Both the position numbers and the translations under genes were made by a program. From assembly GCA_913046275.1 (NCBI GenBank), contig CAJWSE010000026.1:1-11842 (forward strand): 11,842 bases of DNA. The letters are read 5' to 3'. The DNA comes from an uncultured Phycisphaerae bacterium (lineage in GTDB: Bacteria > Planctomycetota > Phycisphaerae > Phycisphaerales > SM1A02). Shown piece after piece: positions 1 through 4,573 of the stretch; positions within the stretch are counted from its first letter, which is position 1, and the number at the start of each line of letters is the position of its first letter. The notes under the pieces were generated by a model. It saw only the letters and a program-made list of their open reading frames with translations. It was not told the origin of the DNA and searched no databases.

Positions 1-93
1 GAAGAAAGAGAGTCGACTTGTTTTATTACACCAGGGTCTCGTGCTGTAGTAGATCAGTCTTCAAATGTAGTTGCTGAGTTGGATGTTTTCTAA
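1..93 (+). CDS. hyuA: C-terminal end of hydantoinase/oxoprolinase subunit A (HyuA), partial at window start
   Basis: Frame 1 is open from the window edge to a TAA at 91-93 and encodes 30 residues beginning EERESTCFITPG and ending ELDVF. An EERE(S/A)T..I.PG....VD..GN stretch just before the stop is characteristic of the C-terminus of HyuA-type proteins (N-methylhydantoinase A / 5-oxoprolinase family), ATP-dependent enzymes that open cyclic amide rings together with HyuB. The TAA overlaps the next ATG (TAATG), the tight coupling usual for hyuA-hyuB, and the following 40-odd residues look like the HyuB N-terminus, so the two assignments support each other. Only the tail is visible, so substrate cannot be judged. 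The evidence is motif resemblance in a short stretch plus context. Confidence 0.6.
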   Translation, partial: EERESTCFITPGSRAVVDQSSNVVAELDVF

Positions 94-221
94 TGCTAGG
101 TGGTTCAAAGGAGTTTGACGCAATATCACTAGGTATTCTTTGGGATCGTTTGGTTTCTATTACTGATGAGATAGAGTCAACTCTGGTTCGAACGTCCTTT
201 TCAACAATTGTTTCTGAAGCA
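93..221 (+). pseudogene. hyuB: N-terminal fragment of hydantoinase subunit B (hyuB), joined to mfd
   Basis: Residues 8-40 of the frame starting at 93 contain FDAISLGILWDRLVSI followed by TDEIESTLVRTSFSTIV. This fits the conserved opening of HyuB (N-methylhydantoinase B / oxoprolinase beta), where a DP(I/V)(T/S)LE(V/I)(L/I)W.RL.SI.DE....L.RT(S/A)FS.I pattern is typical. It directly follows a HyuA C-terminus through a TAATG overlap, as expected for hyuAB. The usual continuation (a DFS/DFA segment leading into a long catalytic body of 500 or more residues) is absent. From about 219-225 the translation continues as Mfd. The end coordinate is approximate: the family match fades between residues 41 and 44. 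A CAATTG hexamer occurs at 205-210 and again at 220-225, flanking the break. Base composition looks the same on both sides. Confidence 0.55.
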
Positions 222-2483
222 ATTGAAGAACTTGTCGCTCTTTCTAAAACACGTACGATTTTTTTAACTTGCAGAACGACTGGTGAAGTTTCTCGTATGA
301 AAGAGCTGGCTTCTGTTGGGCAACCACTAGCACTTGCAGATAATCTTTTCATTGAAAATCTATTTGTACACCGCGGTTTTTTAATTGGTGATAATGCTGC
401 AGTTATTCCTTCTCATGAGATTTTTCATCGCTATGAACTACGAAGGGGTGTGCGAAAGAAGAAGACAATGCGTCAGGCAATGGCTCATTTTAATTTAGAT
501 GACATCGTCGTTCACAGAGAACATGGTATTTCAAAGTATCTGGGGTTGAAACGTCTCGAAGGCCAAGGCGATATGGAGTTCATGACGCTTGAATTCGCCA
601 GTAGCAAACTGTTGCATGTTCCTGCGACTCATGCACATTTTGTTCAGAGGTATATTGGTTCTTTTAAAGGTCGACCAGAATTATCAGTACTTGGTGGAAT
701 GAAATGGTCAAATCAAAAAGATAGGGCTAAAGGTGCTGTTGTTGAATTGGCACATGAAATGATTCGCGTCCAAGCTGTAAGGGAGACAGCGCCTGGGATA
801 GCATTTCCACTAGATACTGAATGGATGAAAGAGTTTGAGGCAAGTTTTCCTTGGGATGAAACAGAGGATCAGCTGAATGCAATATCGTCGATGAAAAAAG
901 ACATGCAGTCTCCAAGGCCAATGGATAGACTGATTTGCGGTGATGTTGGATTTGGCAAAACGGAAATAGCTATACGAGCTGCATTCAAAGCAGCTGAATC
1001 GGGCAGGCAGGTTGTGATTCTTGTTCCCACAACAGTTTTGGCGGTCCAACATGAGCGAACAATTCGAAAACGTTTAGCAGATTACCCATTTGTCGTTGAA
1101 TCTATGACTCGCTTTCACAGTACAAGTGAACAAAAAGAAATTTTATCGAGAGTCGAAAGTGGAGAAGTGGATGTACTTATTGGGACACATCGTATTCTCA
1201 GCAAAGACGTTCATTTCAGTCGACTAGGTCTTGTAATAATTGATGAAGAGCAGCGGTTTGGAGTTGAGCATAAGCAGCGATTATTTGCATTTAGAGCTGA
1301 GGCAGATGTATTGACACTAACTGCAACGCCGATCCCTCGAACATTGCATATGGCACTTTTAGGTATAAGAGATATTAGCTCTCTTGAAACTGCTCCAGTT
1401 GATCGGAGGGCCGTTGTTACTGAAATTAAAAGCTGGGACAAACAAGTTATCAAGCAAGGTATTCAGAGAGAGTTGGCAAGAGAAGGCCAAGTGTTCTATG
1501 TTCATAATCGAGTTTCCGATATTGAAGAAGTCGCAAATGACATTCGAACCATGGTTCCAGAAGCCAAAGTAATCGTGGGTCATGGTCAAATGCCTCCTCG
1601 AGAGTTAGAAAAAGTAATGCTAAGTTTTGTTCAAGGCGATGCTGATATACTTGTTTCGACAACAATTATTGAATCCGGTATTGATATACCAACTGCAAAC
1701 ACAATGTTTATAAATGATGCTGATAGATTTGGTTTGTCTGACTTGCATCAACTTAGAGGTAGAGTTGGACGATACAAACATCGAGCATACTGCACTTTAT
1801 TGTTGCCTCGACAACGATTTTTAACTGAGACTGCTTTAAGGAGATTGCATGCAATTGAGCAATTCTCTATGCTTGGCGCAGGTTTTCAAATTGCTCTGCG
1901 AGATTTAGAGATACGAGGCGCGGGGAACCTTCTTGGTTCGGAACAATCAGGTCATATAGCAGCTGTTGGATATGAAATGTATTGCCAGCTTCTAGACCAA
2001 GCAGTTTCACATTTACGTGAAGGAAAAAATATAGGCCAAGTTGATGTTATGCTTGATTTAGGAGAAAGCGGTTCTATTCATTCTGTTTATATGGCGTCAC
2101 CGATTAGGCGATTAGCAATGTATTGCAGATTGGCATCTAGTGAAACCATGGATTCAATAAGTAAGATTGTTCATGATTTAGAAACTGGGTATGGTTCATT
2201 ACCAATTGCTACACAGAAACTTGTGAAATATCATGAGCTGAGGATTGTTTCTTCTGGTTTGCTCATTGACTCTATGATAATTGATGATTCAGATGTTGTC
2301 ATCAGAACAAAGAATGAGTCATTACTAACAGCTCAACTATCATCAAGCGGAACATTACGTTCTGTTGGTCAGCAATCAACTGCAGGTTTTACTTCAATGT
2401 ATTATCGTTATCCTTCTCGTTTTAAGGTAAGTGCTCTCGATAAACTGCATGCTGAATTGGTTAAATCAAGTTGCCTGCGGTAG
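93..2483 (+). CDS. mfd: Chimeric ORF: HyuB-like N-terminus fused in frame to N-terminally truncated transcription-repair coupling factor Mfd
   Basis: A 796-residue frame. From about residue 44 it is Mfd, the SF2 DNA translocase that removes stalled RNA polymerase and recruits UvrA. Visible are the RNA-polymerase-interaction domain (about 133-230, from DDIVVHREHGISKY), Walker A GDVGFGKT (283-290), the DEEQ box (384-387), TATPIPRT (410-417), IIESGIDIP, QLRGRVGR (553-560) and a C-terminal TRCF domain. Typical Mfd is about 1,100-1,200 residues. The UvrB-like D1/D2 modules and part of D3 (roughly the first 380 residues) are missing. In their place are ~43 residues resembling the start of HyuB (see 93-221). 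The ATG at 93 is the only start joined to this frame, because an in-frame TGA lies at 75-77. Translocation and polymerase binding should be preserved, but UvrA recruitment should be lost if the protein is real. An assembly misjoin is an equally serious explanation. The Mfd identity is certain; the native status of its 5' end is not. Confidence 0.85.
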   Translation: MLGGSKEFDAISLGILWDRLVSITDEIESTLVRTSFSTIVSEAIEELVALSKTRTIFLTCRTTGEVSRMKELASVGQPLALADNLFIENLFVHRGFLIGDNAAVIPSHEIFHRYELRRGVRKKKTMRQAMAHFNLDDIVVHREHGISKYLGLKRLEGQGDMEFMTLEFASSKLLHVPATHAHFVQRYIGSFKGRPELSVLGGMKWSNQKDRAKGAVVELAHEMIRVQAVRETAPGIAFPLDTEWMKEFEASFPWDETEDQLNAISSMKKDMQSPRPMDRLICGDVGFGKTEIAIRAAFKAAESGRQVVILVPTTVLAVQHERTIRKRLADYPFVVESMTRFHSTSEQKEILSRVESGEVDVLIGTHRILSKDVHFSRLGLVIIDEEQRFGVEHKQRLFAFRAEADVLTLTATPIPRTLHMALLGIRDISSLETAPVDRRAVVTEIKSWDKQVIKQGIQRELAREGQVFYVHNRVSDIEEVANDIRTMVPEAKVIVGHGQMPPRELEKVMLSFVQGDADILVSTTIIESGIDIPTANTMFINDADRFGLSDLHQLRGRVGRYKHRAYCTLLLPRQRFLTETALRRLHAIEQFSMLGAGFQIALRDLEIRGAGNLLGSEQSGHIAAVGYEMYCQLLDQAVSHLREGKNIGQVDVMLDLGESGSIHSVYMASPIRRLAMYCRLASSETMDSISKIVHDLETGYGSLPIATQKLVKYHELRIVSSGLLIDSMIIDDSDVVIRTKNESLLTAQLSSSGTLRSVGQQSTAGFTSMYYRYPSRFKVSALDKLHAELVKSSCLR

Positions 2484-2959: not shown

Positions 2960-3535
2960 TTACTCTTCAGTTAGTTCTTCTTTAGTTTCTTCAACTACTT
3001 TGCTTTCAATTTTTTCAACAACGATAAGGTTTCCTTCGTCATCAAATTCCATATCTTCTCTATCTTCAAGTGGTCTGTCGGGGTTTACGAGAATTTCAAC
3101 ATCAGCTTTCATTTCCGCGCCGAATTGGATGGTGACGTGGTATTCCCCAATTCTTCGGATAGCAGAGTGTAGTCGTATTGCTCTGGTGTCCACTGCGTAG
3201 CCATTTTCAATGAGAGCATCAGCAATATCTCGCTGGGTCACAGATCCGTAAAGACCGCCTTGATCATTTGCACTACGAGTGAGTGTAAGTACTTGTCCTT
3301 CAAGCTTATTAATAATGTCTGATTGTGCAGAGCGCGTTGCCTCGTACTCTTTGAGTGCAATCGCACGTTCTTCAGCAAGTGCTTCGACTTTTTCTGCTGT
3401 TGGAACTTCCGCCAAGCCCATTGGCAGAAGGAAGTTTCTTGCATAGCCCATTCGTACGCGAACAATGTCGCCTACAATCCCAAGGTTTTCTACATTAGAG
3501 GTGAGTAGTAATTCAATTCTTCTAGCGTTAGCCAT
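2960..3535 (-). CDS. rplI: 50S ribosomal protein bL9, with acidic C-terminal extension
   Basis: bL9 bridges the L1 stalk region of 23S rRNA and helps keep the reading frame. The 191-residue protein has the N-domain with NLGIVGDIVRVRMGYARNFLLP (17-38), a long connecting helix (about 45-80) and the C-domain with GGLYGSVTQRDIADAL (93-108) and IRRIGEYHVTIQFG. Bacterial L9 is usually about 150 residues. The extra ~40 residues at the end (from about 151) are rich in Glu/Asp, ending KEELTEE. The N-terminus carries a few residues (ANARR) before the usual start of strand 1. AAAGGA sits 7 bases before the ATG, which fixes the start. It is the last gene of the minus-strand operon, 88 bases after ssb; that gap can form hairpins. 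Confidence 0.97.
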   Translation of the reverse strand: MANARRIELLLTSNVENLGIVGDIVRVRMGYARNFLLPMGLAEVPTAEKVEALAEERAIALKEYEATRSAQSDIINKLEGQVLTLTRSANDQGGLYGSVTQRDIADALIENGYAVDTRAIRLHSAIRRIGEYHVTIQFGAEMKADVEILVNPDRPLEDREDMEFDDEGNLIVVEKIESKVVEETKEELTEE

Positions 3536-3623
3536 TATGTTGTCCTTTCAAAGAAAGTTAGGAGTCGCCGGCACAACCCCAACGGGTGAAAAGTGGCACT
3601 AACCGGTGTGCCATTGTGTTTGT
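3536..3623 (-). promoter_or_regulatory. Structured leader between ssb and rplI
   Basis: This 88-base gap holds no gene. On the minus strand it can form GGCAC-N8-GTGCC and, as an alternative, a longer GGCACA / TGTGCC pairing that uses the same 5' arm. A small CTTTC-TTT-GAAAG hairpin (3545-3557 on the plus strand) overlaps the rplI Shine-Dalgarno AAAGGA. Mutually exclusive pairings in front of a ribosomal-protein gene are compatible with translational control or with an RNA-processing site, but nothing identifies a known leader family. No T-tract terminator is seen. Confidence 0.35.
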
Positions 3624-4028
3624 TTAAAACGGAATATCATCTGTAGGGGGAGTCGCTCCAACAGGTGTTTGTGCGGGAGGTGTACTTGATTGGTTTCCTT
3701 TTGAGTCAACGAATTGGAAATTATCAATAACTACTTTAAGTTTAGATCTATTGTTGCCATCTTTATCTTGCCACTGATCTAATTTTAGCCTTCCTTCAAC
3801 AAATACAGGGCGACCTTTTGCAAGGTATTTTGCCATTGTTTCAGCCGTTTTTCCCCAGCTTTCACAATCAACATATGTAGTTTCTTCACGTTGTTCACCA
3901 GTCCTGTCTTTAAAACGTCTATTGACAGCAATGCTTATTTGAGCAACTGCCATATCATTTGATGTTCGTTTGAGCTCTGGATCTCGAGTGAGATTCCCCA
4001 TTAGAAGTACTTTGTTGTAGTTTGCCAT
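3624..4028 (-). CDS. ssb: Single-stranded DNA-binding protein
   Basis: SSB coats single-stranded DNA during replication, recombination and repair and recruits partner proteins through its C-terminal tip. The 134-residue protein has the bacterial OB-fold: NKVLLMGNLTRDPELKRT (4-21), ISIAVNRRFKDRTG (32-45), TTYVDCESWGKTAETMAKYL, KGRPVFVEGRLKLDQWQDKDG and a LKVVIDNFQFV strand. A short Gln/Pro/Ser linker then leads to the canonical acidic tip DDIPF (130-134). The linker is shorter than in E. coli SSB (178 residues), but the tip is intact. AAGGAGA sits about 6 bases before the ATG. It lies 47 bases after rpsF, the classic rpsF-ssb pairing, although rpsR, which usually follows, is absent here. Confidence 0.97.
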   Translation of the reverse strand: MANYNKVLLMGNLTRDPELKRTSNDMAVAQISIAVNRRFKDRTGEQREETTYVDCESWGKTAETMAKYLAKGRPVFVEGRLKLDQWQDKDGNNRSKLKVVIDNFQFVDSKGNQSSTPPAQTPVGATPPTDDIPF

Positions 4029-4075
4029 ATGTATTCTCCTTAAATGAATTTTAACAGAATTTTACTTTGAAAAAC

Positions 4076-4573
4076 TTATGCCTCAGCGACTTCTTCGGTT
4101 TCAGATGGAGTTACTTCTTCAGAGACATCGTCAGTTGGTGCAACTTCATTTTCATCTTTTCGAGTCATTGTGCTGGATGATGTATTGCCTTCTCCTGTTT
4201 TCTTTTCACTTCTAAGTTTAATCTCAGTAGCTAGCTCTTCAGATCGTTCATTTGATTCAATAATCTCTGTTGGGAGGTGCTCAGCTCGTGTGACCATCAT
4301 TCGAAGGATGTGCTCTGATTGATTGCAACGTCTTTCTAAATCGCTGATTGCTGAGGTTGGGGCATTAAAGTAAACCAAGAAGTAGACGCCTCGTTTATTT
4401 CCATTTATTTCATACGCAAGCCGGCGGTCATCCCACTTGCTGAAGTTAATAATGGAAGCATCGCACTTCCCAAGGATGTCCTTGAGATGGTCAATTGCTT
4501 CTTGAAGGTTTGCGGTGGCTGATTGTGGGAAGAGGAACATGCCCTCATATAGACCCGTACGTTGATTACTCAT
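4076..4573 (-). CDS. rpsF: 30S ribosomal protein bS6, with long acidic C-terminal extension
   Basis: bS6 binds 16S rRNA together with bS18 in the platform of the small subunit. The core is at residues 7-100: LYEGMFLFPQS, the WDDRRLAYEINGNKRGVYFLVYF strand pair (47-69), then IRCN-like helix and LRMMVTRAEHLP. Family members are usually about 95-135 residues. This one is 165 long, and the ~55 residues after about 110 are low-complexity, rich in Glu, Ser and Thr, and end EEVAEA. GAGG occurs a few bases before the ATG. The gene begins 4 bases after pth, indicating co-transcription and probably coupled translation. The partner gene rpsR is not in this operon. Confidence 0.95.
   Translation of the reverse strand: MSNQRTGLYEGMFLFPQSATANLQEAIDHLKDILGKCDASIINFSKWDDRRLAYEINGNKRGVYFLVYFNAPTSAISDLERRCNQSEHILRMMVTRAEHLPTEIIESNERSEELATEIKLRSEKKTGEGNTSSSTMTRKDENEVAPTDDVSEEVTPSETEEVAEA

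Follow-up and report, generated by a model that had tools for sequence, protein, structure and literature searches.

An apparent HyuB-Mfd fusion at the left end of a Phycisphaerales contig is very probably an artefact of a chimeric join

The stretch of DNA analysed here (the window; 11,842 nucleotides from an uncultured Phycisphaerae bacterium, contig CAJWSE010000026.1) carries at positions 93-2483 of the forward strand a frame that is open throughout its 796 codons in the ORF list, and that begins as the hydantoinase protein HyuB and goes on as the transcription-repair coupling factor Mfd. Is this one gene, formed when two others were fused in a living cell, or are these two pieces of different genomes that were joined on the way to the assembly? 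The initial annotation of this locus had offered both possibilities. In the protein database the window's 796-residue protein, P0001, is assigned to a single contig, the longest length given being 11,842 bases. The window is therefore the entire contig, and the two parts meet some 200 bases in from one of its ends. We put at roughly 94% the probability that the left end of this contig is a chimera, with an hyuAB segment of another organism attached to a Phycisphaerales chromosome that begins inside mfd, and what looks like a HyuB-Mfd fusion is then, very probably, an artefact.

The left part of the window reads as the end of one gene running into the start of the next. At positions 1-93 (forward strand) a hyuA-type gene, truncated where the contig begins and apparently of other origin, is represented by its last 30 codons and its stop, a TAA that overlaps the ATG of the following frame (TAATG, 91-95). 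These 30 codons align with the C-terminus of a protein annotated as hydantoinase/oxoprolinase, encoded immediately before hyuB on a Rhizobium plasmid, with a BLOSUM62 score of 53 that none of 500 shuffles reached (largest 41), which bears out the HyuA C-terminus and overlapping start codon that had been read here from the letters alone. The 29-residue upstream piece matched nothing in Pfam or NCBIfam, and a distant DNA search of positions 1-90 against plasmids returned seven records, the five listed at E of about 3.

The start of the frame belongs to HyuB. When the first 48 residues were searched as a separate piece, positions 1-35 of the Pfam Hydantoinase_B profile matched residues 9-43 (25.3 bits, E = 6.8e-6, cut-off 26.8 bits), and inside the whole 796-residue frame the match covered profile positions 1-44 at 20.5 bits; both scores fall below the cut-off because the matched piece is short. 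The full domain of 519 positions is absent from the frame, the start of the profile being all that was matched. NCBIfam profiles gave no match for the 48-residue piece, and a sequence search of the PDB with it gave weak matches alone (E of 0.56 or worse). Residues 1-44, searched on their own among 5.8 billion proteins with candidates restricted to 0.55-1.75 times 796 residues, reached an E-value of 4.4e-16 and retrieved 73 proteins at E of 10 or less from 79 candidates; the 72 besides P0001 all carry PF02538 and are 445-559 residues long. The best match, P0121, is an intact HyuB of 548 residues on an 88,666-base contig. With this family (HyuB, or N-methylhydantoinase B, PF02538) the window shares the start codon, the first 42 residues (41/42 as in P0121) and the overlap with a hyuA-type gene, but it lacks the remaining 500 or so residues. 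Four of the matches to residues 1-44 carry an organism label (Hyphomicrobiaceae, Alphaproteobacteria, Pseudomonadota and Lautropia). Among the best 120 of 5070 matches to P0121 there are four more, three labelled Alphaproteobacteria and one Proteobacteria. Five of these eight labelled HyuB relatives are alphaproteobacterial, and none is nearer than about 65% to P0121 where a figure is given; going by these labels, the left segment was probably donated by another organism, a proteobacterium. A search for relatives of P0121 in a viral contig collection produced five pattern matches, none of them a relative.

The right part, from 219 to 2483 on the forward strand, is mfd from codon 301 (numbered as in its relative P0002) to the stop. 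Positions 213-904 of the 907-position TIGR00580 mfd model match residues 40-726 with 837 bits, above the cut-off of 800, and the Pfam families PF02559, PF00270, PF00271 and PF03461 (RID, DEAD/Helicase_C and TRCF) are all over cut-off in the frame. P0002, an intact Mfd of 1061 residues on a 35,322-base contig, is 91.6% identical to this part: residues 35-796 of the window's protein align with P0002 293-1061 at 698 identities in 762 aligned columns, and the gap columns, seven in all, equal the seven residues by which P0002 extends at the C-terminus. The window's protein thus agrees with Phycisphaerales Mfd in its RID, helicase and TRCF regions and differs in lacking the UvrB-like N-terminal module (within P0002 1-292), as UvrB_inter (PF17757), present at residues 127-212 of P0002, has no Pfam match in the window frame. 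In Mfd, the UvrB-like N-terminal module recruits UvrA.

Where the two parts meet, identity passes cleanly from one parent to the other. The first 34 codons of the frame (93-194, forward strand) encode residues of which 33 are identical to P0121 and 3 to P0002; the next eight residues, SFSTIVSE (195-218), are identical to both proteins at 8/8; and in the 60 residues that follow a single position is identical to P0121 and 51 to P0002. SFSTIVSES is present in all ten HyuB matches listed, of 72. As SFSTIVSE is encoded by both genes in the same frame, the switch lies somewhere within 195-218, and the join is in frame for the same reason. The initial annotation was therefore right that the frame opens as HyuB and continues as Mfd, but its placing of the joint near 205-225 needs correction: the switch is not a point there and may sit anywhere in the SFSTIVSE block. 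The repeated CAATTG (205-210 and 220-225) that had been taken to bracket the break does exist, but as a break signature it was rejected: the window contains 8 copies of the hexamer where 6.5 are expected, and of the pair the right-hand copy lies past the shared block, in Mfd codons. Compared with the mfd site of six relatives, the 24-base block matched at best 18 of 24 bases (locus L002), although relatives cannot stand in for the actual parent; the exact 24-mer had no match in the viral contig collection, as expected of viral sequences. A shift in GC as a sign of a foreign source was also considered and discarded, since 1-194 and 219-2483 have the same value, 0.407, and the window as a whole has 0.417.

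What the corresponding region looks like in related organisms was assessed by scanning genome contigs for Mfd and keeping the best 80 of 287 loci (L001-L080), nearly all of them titled as Phycisphaerae or other Planctomycetota, with a few 'uncultured bacterium' and one 'Chitinophaga pinensis'. The alignments to L001-L004 and L006, at 72-78% identity, start at query residue 36, which is the joint. In 73 of these best 80 loci the frame, counted from its first ATG, extends 190 codons or more upstream of where the match starts, and in the other seven no more than 435 bases separate the start of the match from a contig end. Each of the 13 genomes in the nearest genus (that of genome G002) has the N-terminal part of Mfd: in 12 of them the match runs from P0002 residue 19 or earlier (the listed match ending at 465 in G069 and at 382 in G070), and in G008 it runs from residue 67, with residues 1-60 as a separate piece on another contig. 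HyuB was found in none of the same 13 genomes, which are MAGs, so that absence is not proof, and HyuA over cut-off was likewise found in none, three of them having weak HyuA-type matches of about 40 positions below the cut-off; the same searches, as a positive control, detect these genes in 6 of 14 control genomes. An origin of the HyuB start within the genus was rejected on these 13 genomes. No HyuB was present in the fetched mfd loci, the best 80 of 287, either. Two HyuB proteins (in G009 and G010) occur among ten genomes reached through the loci, at 24-27% identity to P0121, and blastp of the first 44 residues against the longest frames of the G009 and G010 loci returned nothing, these frames having been chosen loosely enough that a HyuB frame may be missed.

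The gene neighbourhood points the same way. Directly upstream of mfd in L001 and L002 lie a helix-hairpin-helix gene and a GH10-like gene, relatives of both of which occur in L001-L007. Downstream, the order mfd, TSCPD, rplI, ssb, rpsF, pth, rplY, prs is the same in the window as in L001-L004 and L007. The gene that follows mfd in the window, at 2501-2884 on the forward strand, encodes a TSCPD-domain protein (PF12637) and is the usual 3' neighbour of mfd in the genus, lying downstream of it in L001-L005 and L007; in related genomes the TSCPD gene is immediately preceded by a full-length mfd, the observation that the initial annotation had named as the mark of a misjoin. Given the N-terminal part of mfd in the 13 genomes of the genus, in none of which HyuB was found, and the neighbours and gene order in the related loci, comparison of sequences indicates that what lies to the right of the joint is ordinary sequence for this genus and what lies to the left is not.

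Two features of this downstream region are recorded here in their own right. The stand-alone TSCPD protein, of 127 residues, matches the model NF005122 for B12-dependent ribonucleotide reductase over its positions 740-859, with 139 bits, a score far below the whole-protein cut-off of 859. In 37 of 90 loci, some of which represent the same genome twice, its gene starts no further than 1500 bases downstream of mfd. The rplI-ssb-rpsF cluster, at 2960-4573 on the reverse strand, contains no rpsR frame among ORFs of at least 80 residues.

The distribution of N-termini among Mfd proteins is similarly informative. Among 120 listed, of 8000 scored, P0001 alone has a HyuB start; 113 match P0002 residues 1-292, and six others besides P0001 begin inside Mfd. 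The joint therefore recurs in none of the other 119 listed proteins, nor in the best 80 of 287 loci, where the initial annotation had suggested looking for it in relatives. The P0001 cluster counts three member sequences and one contig, and a second copy of the joint may be present among its members. A separate case from the same group is P0024 (883 residues, contig 72249), an Mfd whose listed start falls inside the UvrB-like part and which has no UvrB_inter match, reflecting either a contig end or a real short form.

Taken together, a chimeric contig end is favoured because the two parents exist intact and separately on longer contigs, identity switches cleanly at an octapeptide common to both, and the switch stands at a contig end; because the Mfd N-terminal part is present in 13/13 genomes of the genus and HyuB in 0/13; and because the downstream gene order is that of L001-L004 and L007 while P0001 is the sole listed Mfd with a HyuB start. 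The two full-length parents (P0121 and P0002) are different proteins, and they share the sequence of the joint at 8 of 8 residues. The first 195 to 218 bases or so would come from the hyuAB operon of another organism and the rest would be ordinary Phycisphaerales chromosome, joined at the SFSTIVSE codons, where up to about 24 nucleotides would be common if the codons agree, the sharing being seen at the protein level. The joining itself may have been done by the assembler, at a small k-mer step, or have arisen as a chimeric library or amplification product. Metagenome assemblies are described as yielding contigs that mix the sequence of several genomes at k-mers common to their graphs (PMC7299287), and of template-switch chimeras formed in multiple displacement amplification (MDA) more than 70% are reported as primed at complementary stretches of 2-21 nucleotides, with more than 85% inversions and intramolecular joins favoured (PMC1855051). 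As far as these accounts go, the present contig resembles both in that two sources meet in a short stretch common to the two, which in this case stands near the end of the contig, and differs from the MDA chimeras in that inversion, which prevails among them, is not shown for this contig. Counted against a chimera are the in-frame join, which chance would give one time in three and which is expected if shared codons mediate the join, and the unchanged GC across the joint. The misjoin that the initial annotation had listed as one of two alternatives is thus strongly favoured.

A real in-frame recombination in one strain, in which a hyuAB operon gained by horizontal transfer stood next to mfd or had been inserted into it, and the start of hyuB was fused to mfd through microhomology of the SFSTIVSE codons, is improbable. 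It would fit a frame intact over 796 codons and a GC content alike on both sides of the joint, and biological end-joining, too, uses microhomology. Such an event, however, needs three steps: the gain of hyuAB, of which the genus showed no instance, its arrival next to mfd, and the loss of the UvrB-like module. Against it stand the lack of HyuB in the 13 genomes, the lack of any further case in the remaining 119 listed Mfd matches, the joint some 200 bases from the contig end, and a 91.6% identical relative, P0002, that is full length. The 'novel protein architecture' and 'hyuA-promoter-driven Mfd' first offered for this locus are not supported; were the fusion real, its product would be a translocase and coupling factor that lacks the UvrB-like module and is translated after hyuA. 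Least probable by far is that residues 1-43 are a diverged stretch of normal Mfd, or follow from an alternative start, and resemble HyuB by chance, a reading that the sub-threshold Pfam match of the short piece and the empty NCBIfam search would allow, but one against which the search with residues 1-44 (E = 4.4e-16, all 72 other matches with PF02538) and the identity counts (33/34 to full-length HyuB, 3/34 to P0002) speak decisively, with a HyuA-like C-terminus directly upstream.

On the preferred reading of a chimeric contig end, the UvrB-like module is missing because the contig switches source. A search of the open-licence literature found no paper that brings together Mfd, hydantoinase and fusion protein. 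The case offers a simple test for chimeras: both sides of a suspected joint are searched apart, and a stretch common to both intact parents is sought. The first 218 bases of this contig are no evidence of hyuAB in this planctomycete genus, P0001 with its 796 residues should be taken neither for a short Mfd nor for a fused one, and in the intact source organism mfd is most likely full length, at about 1060 codons.
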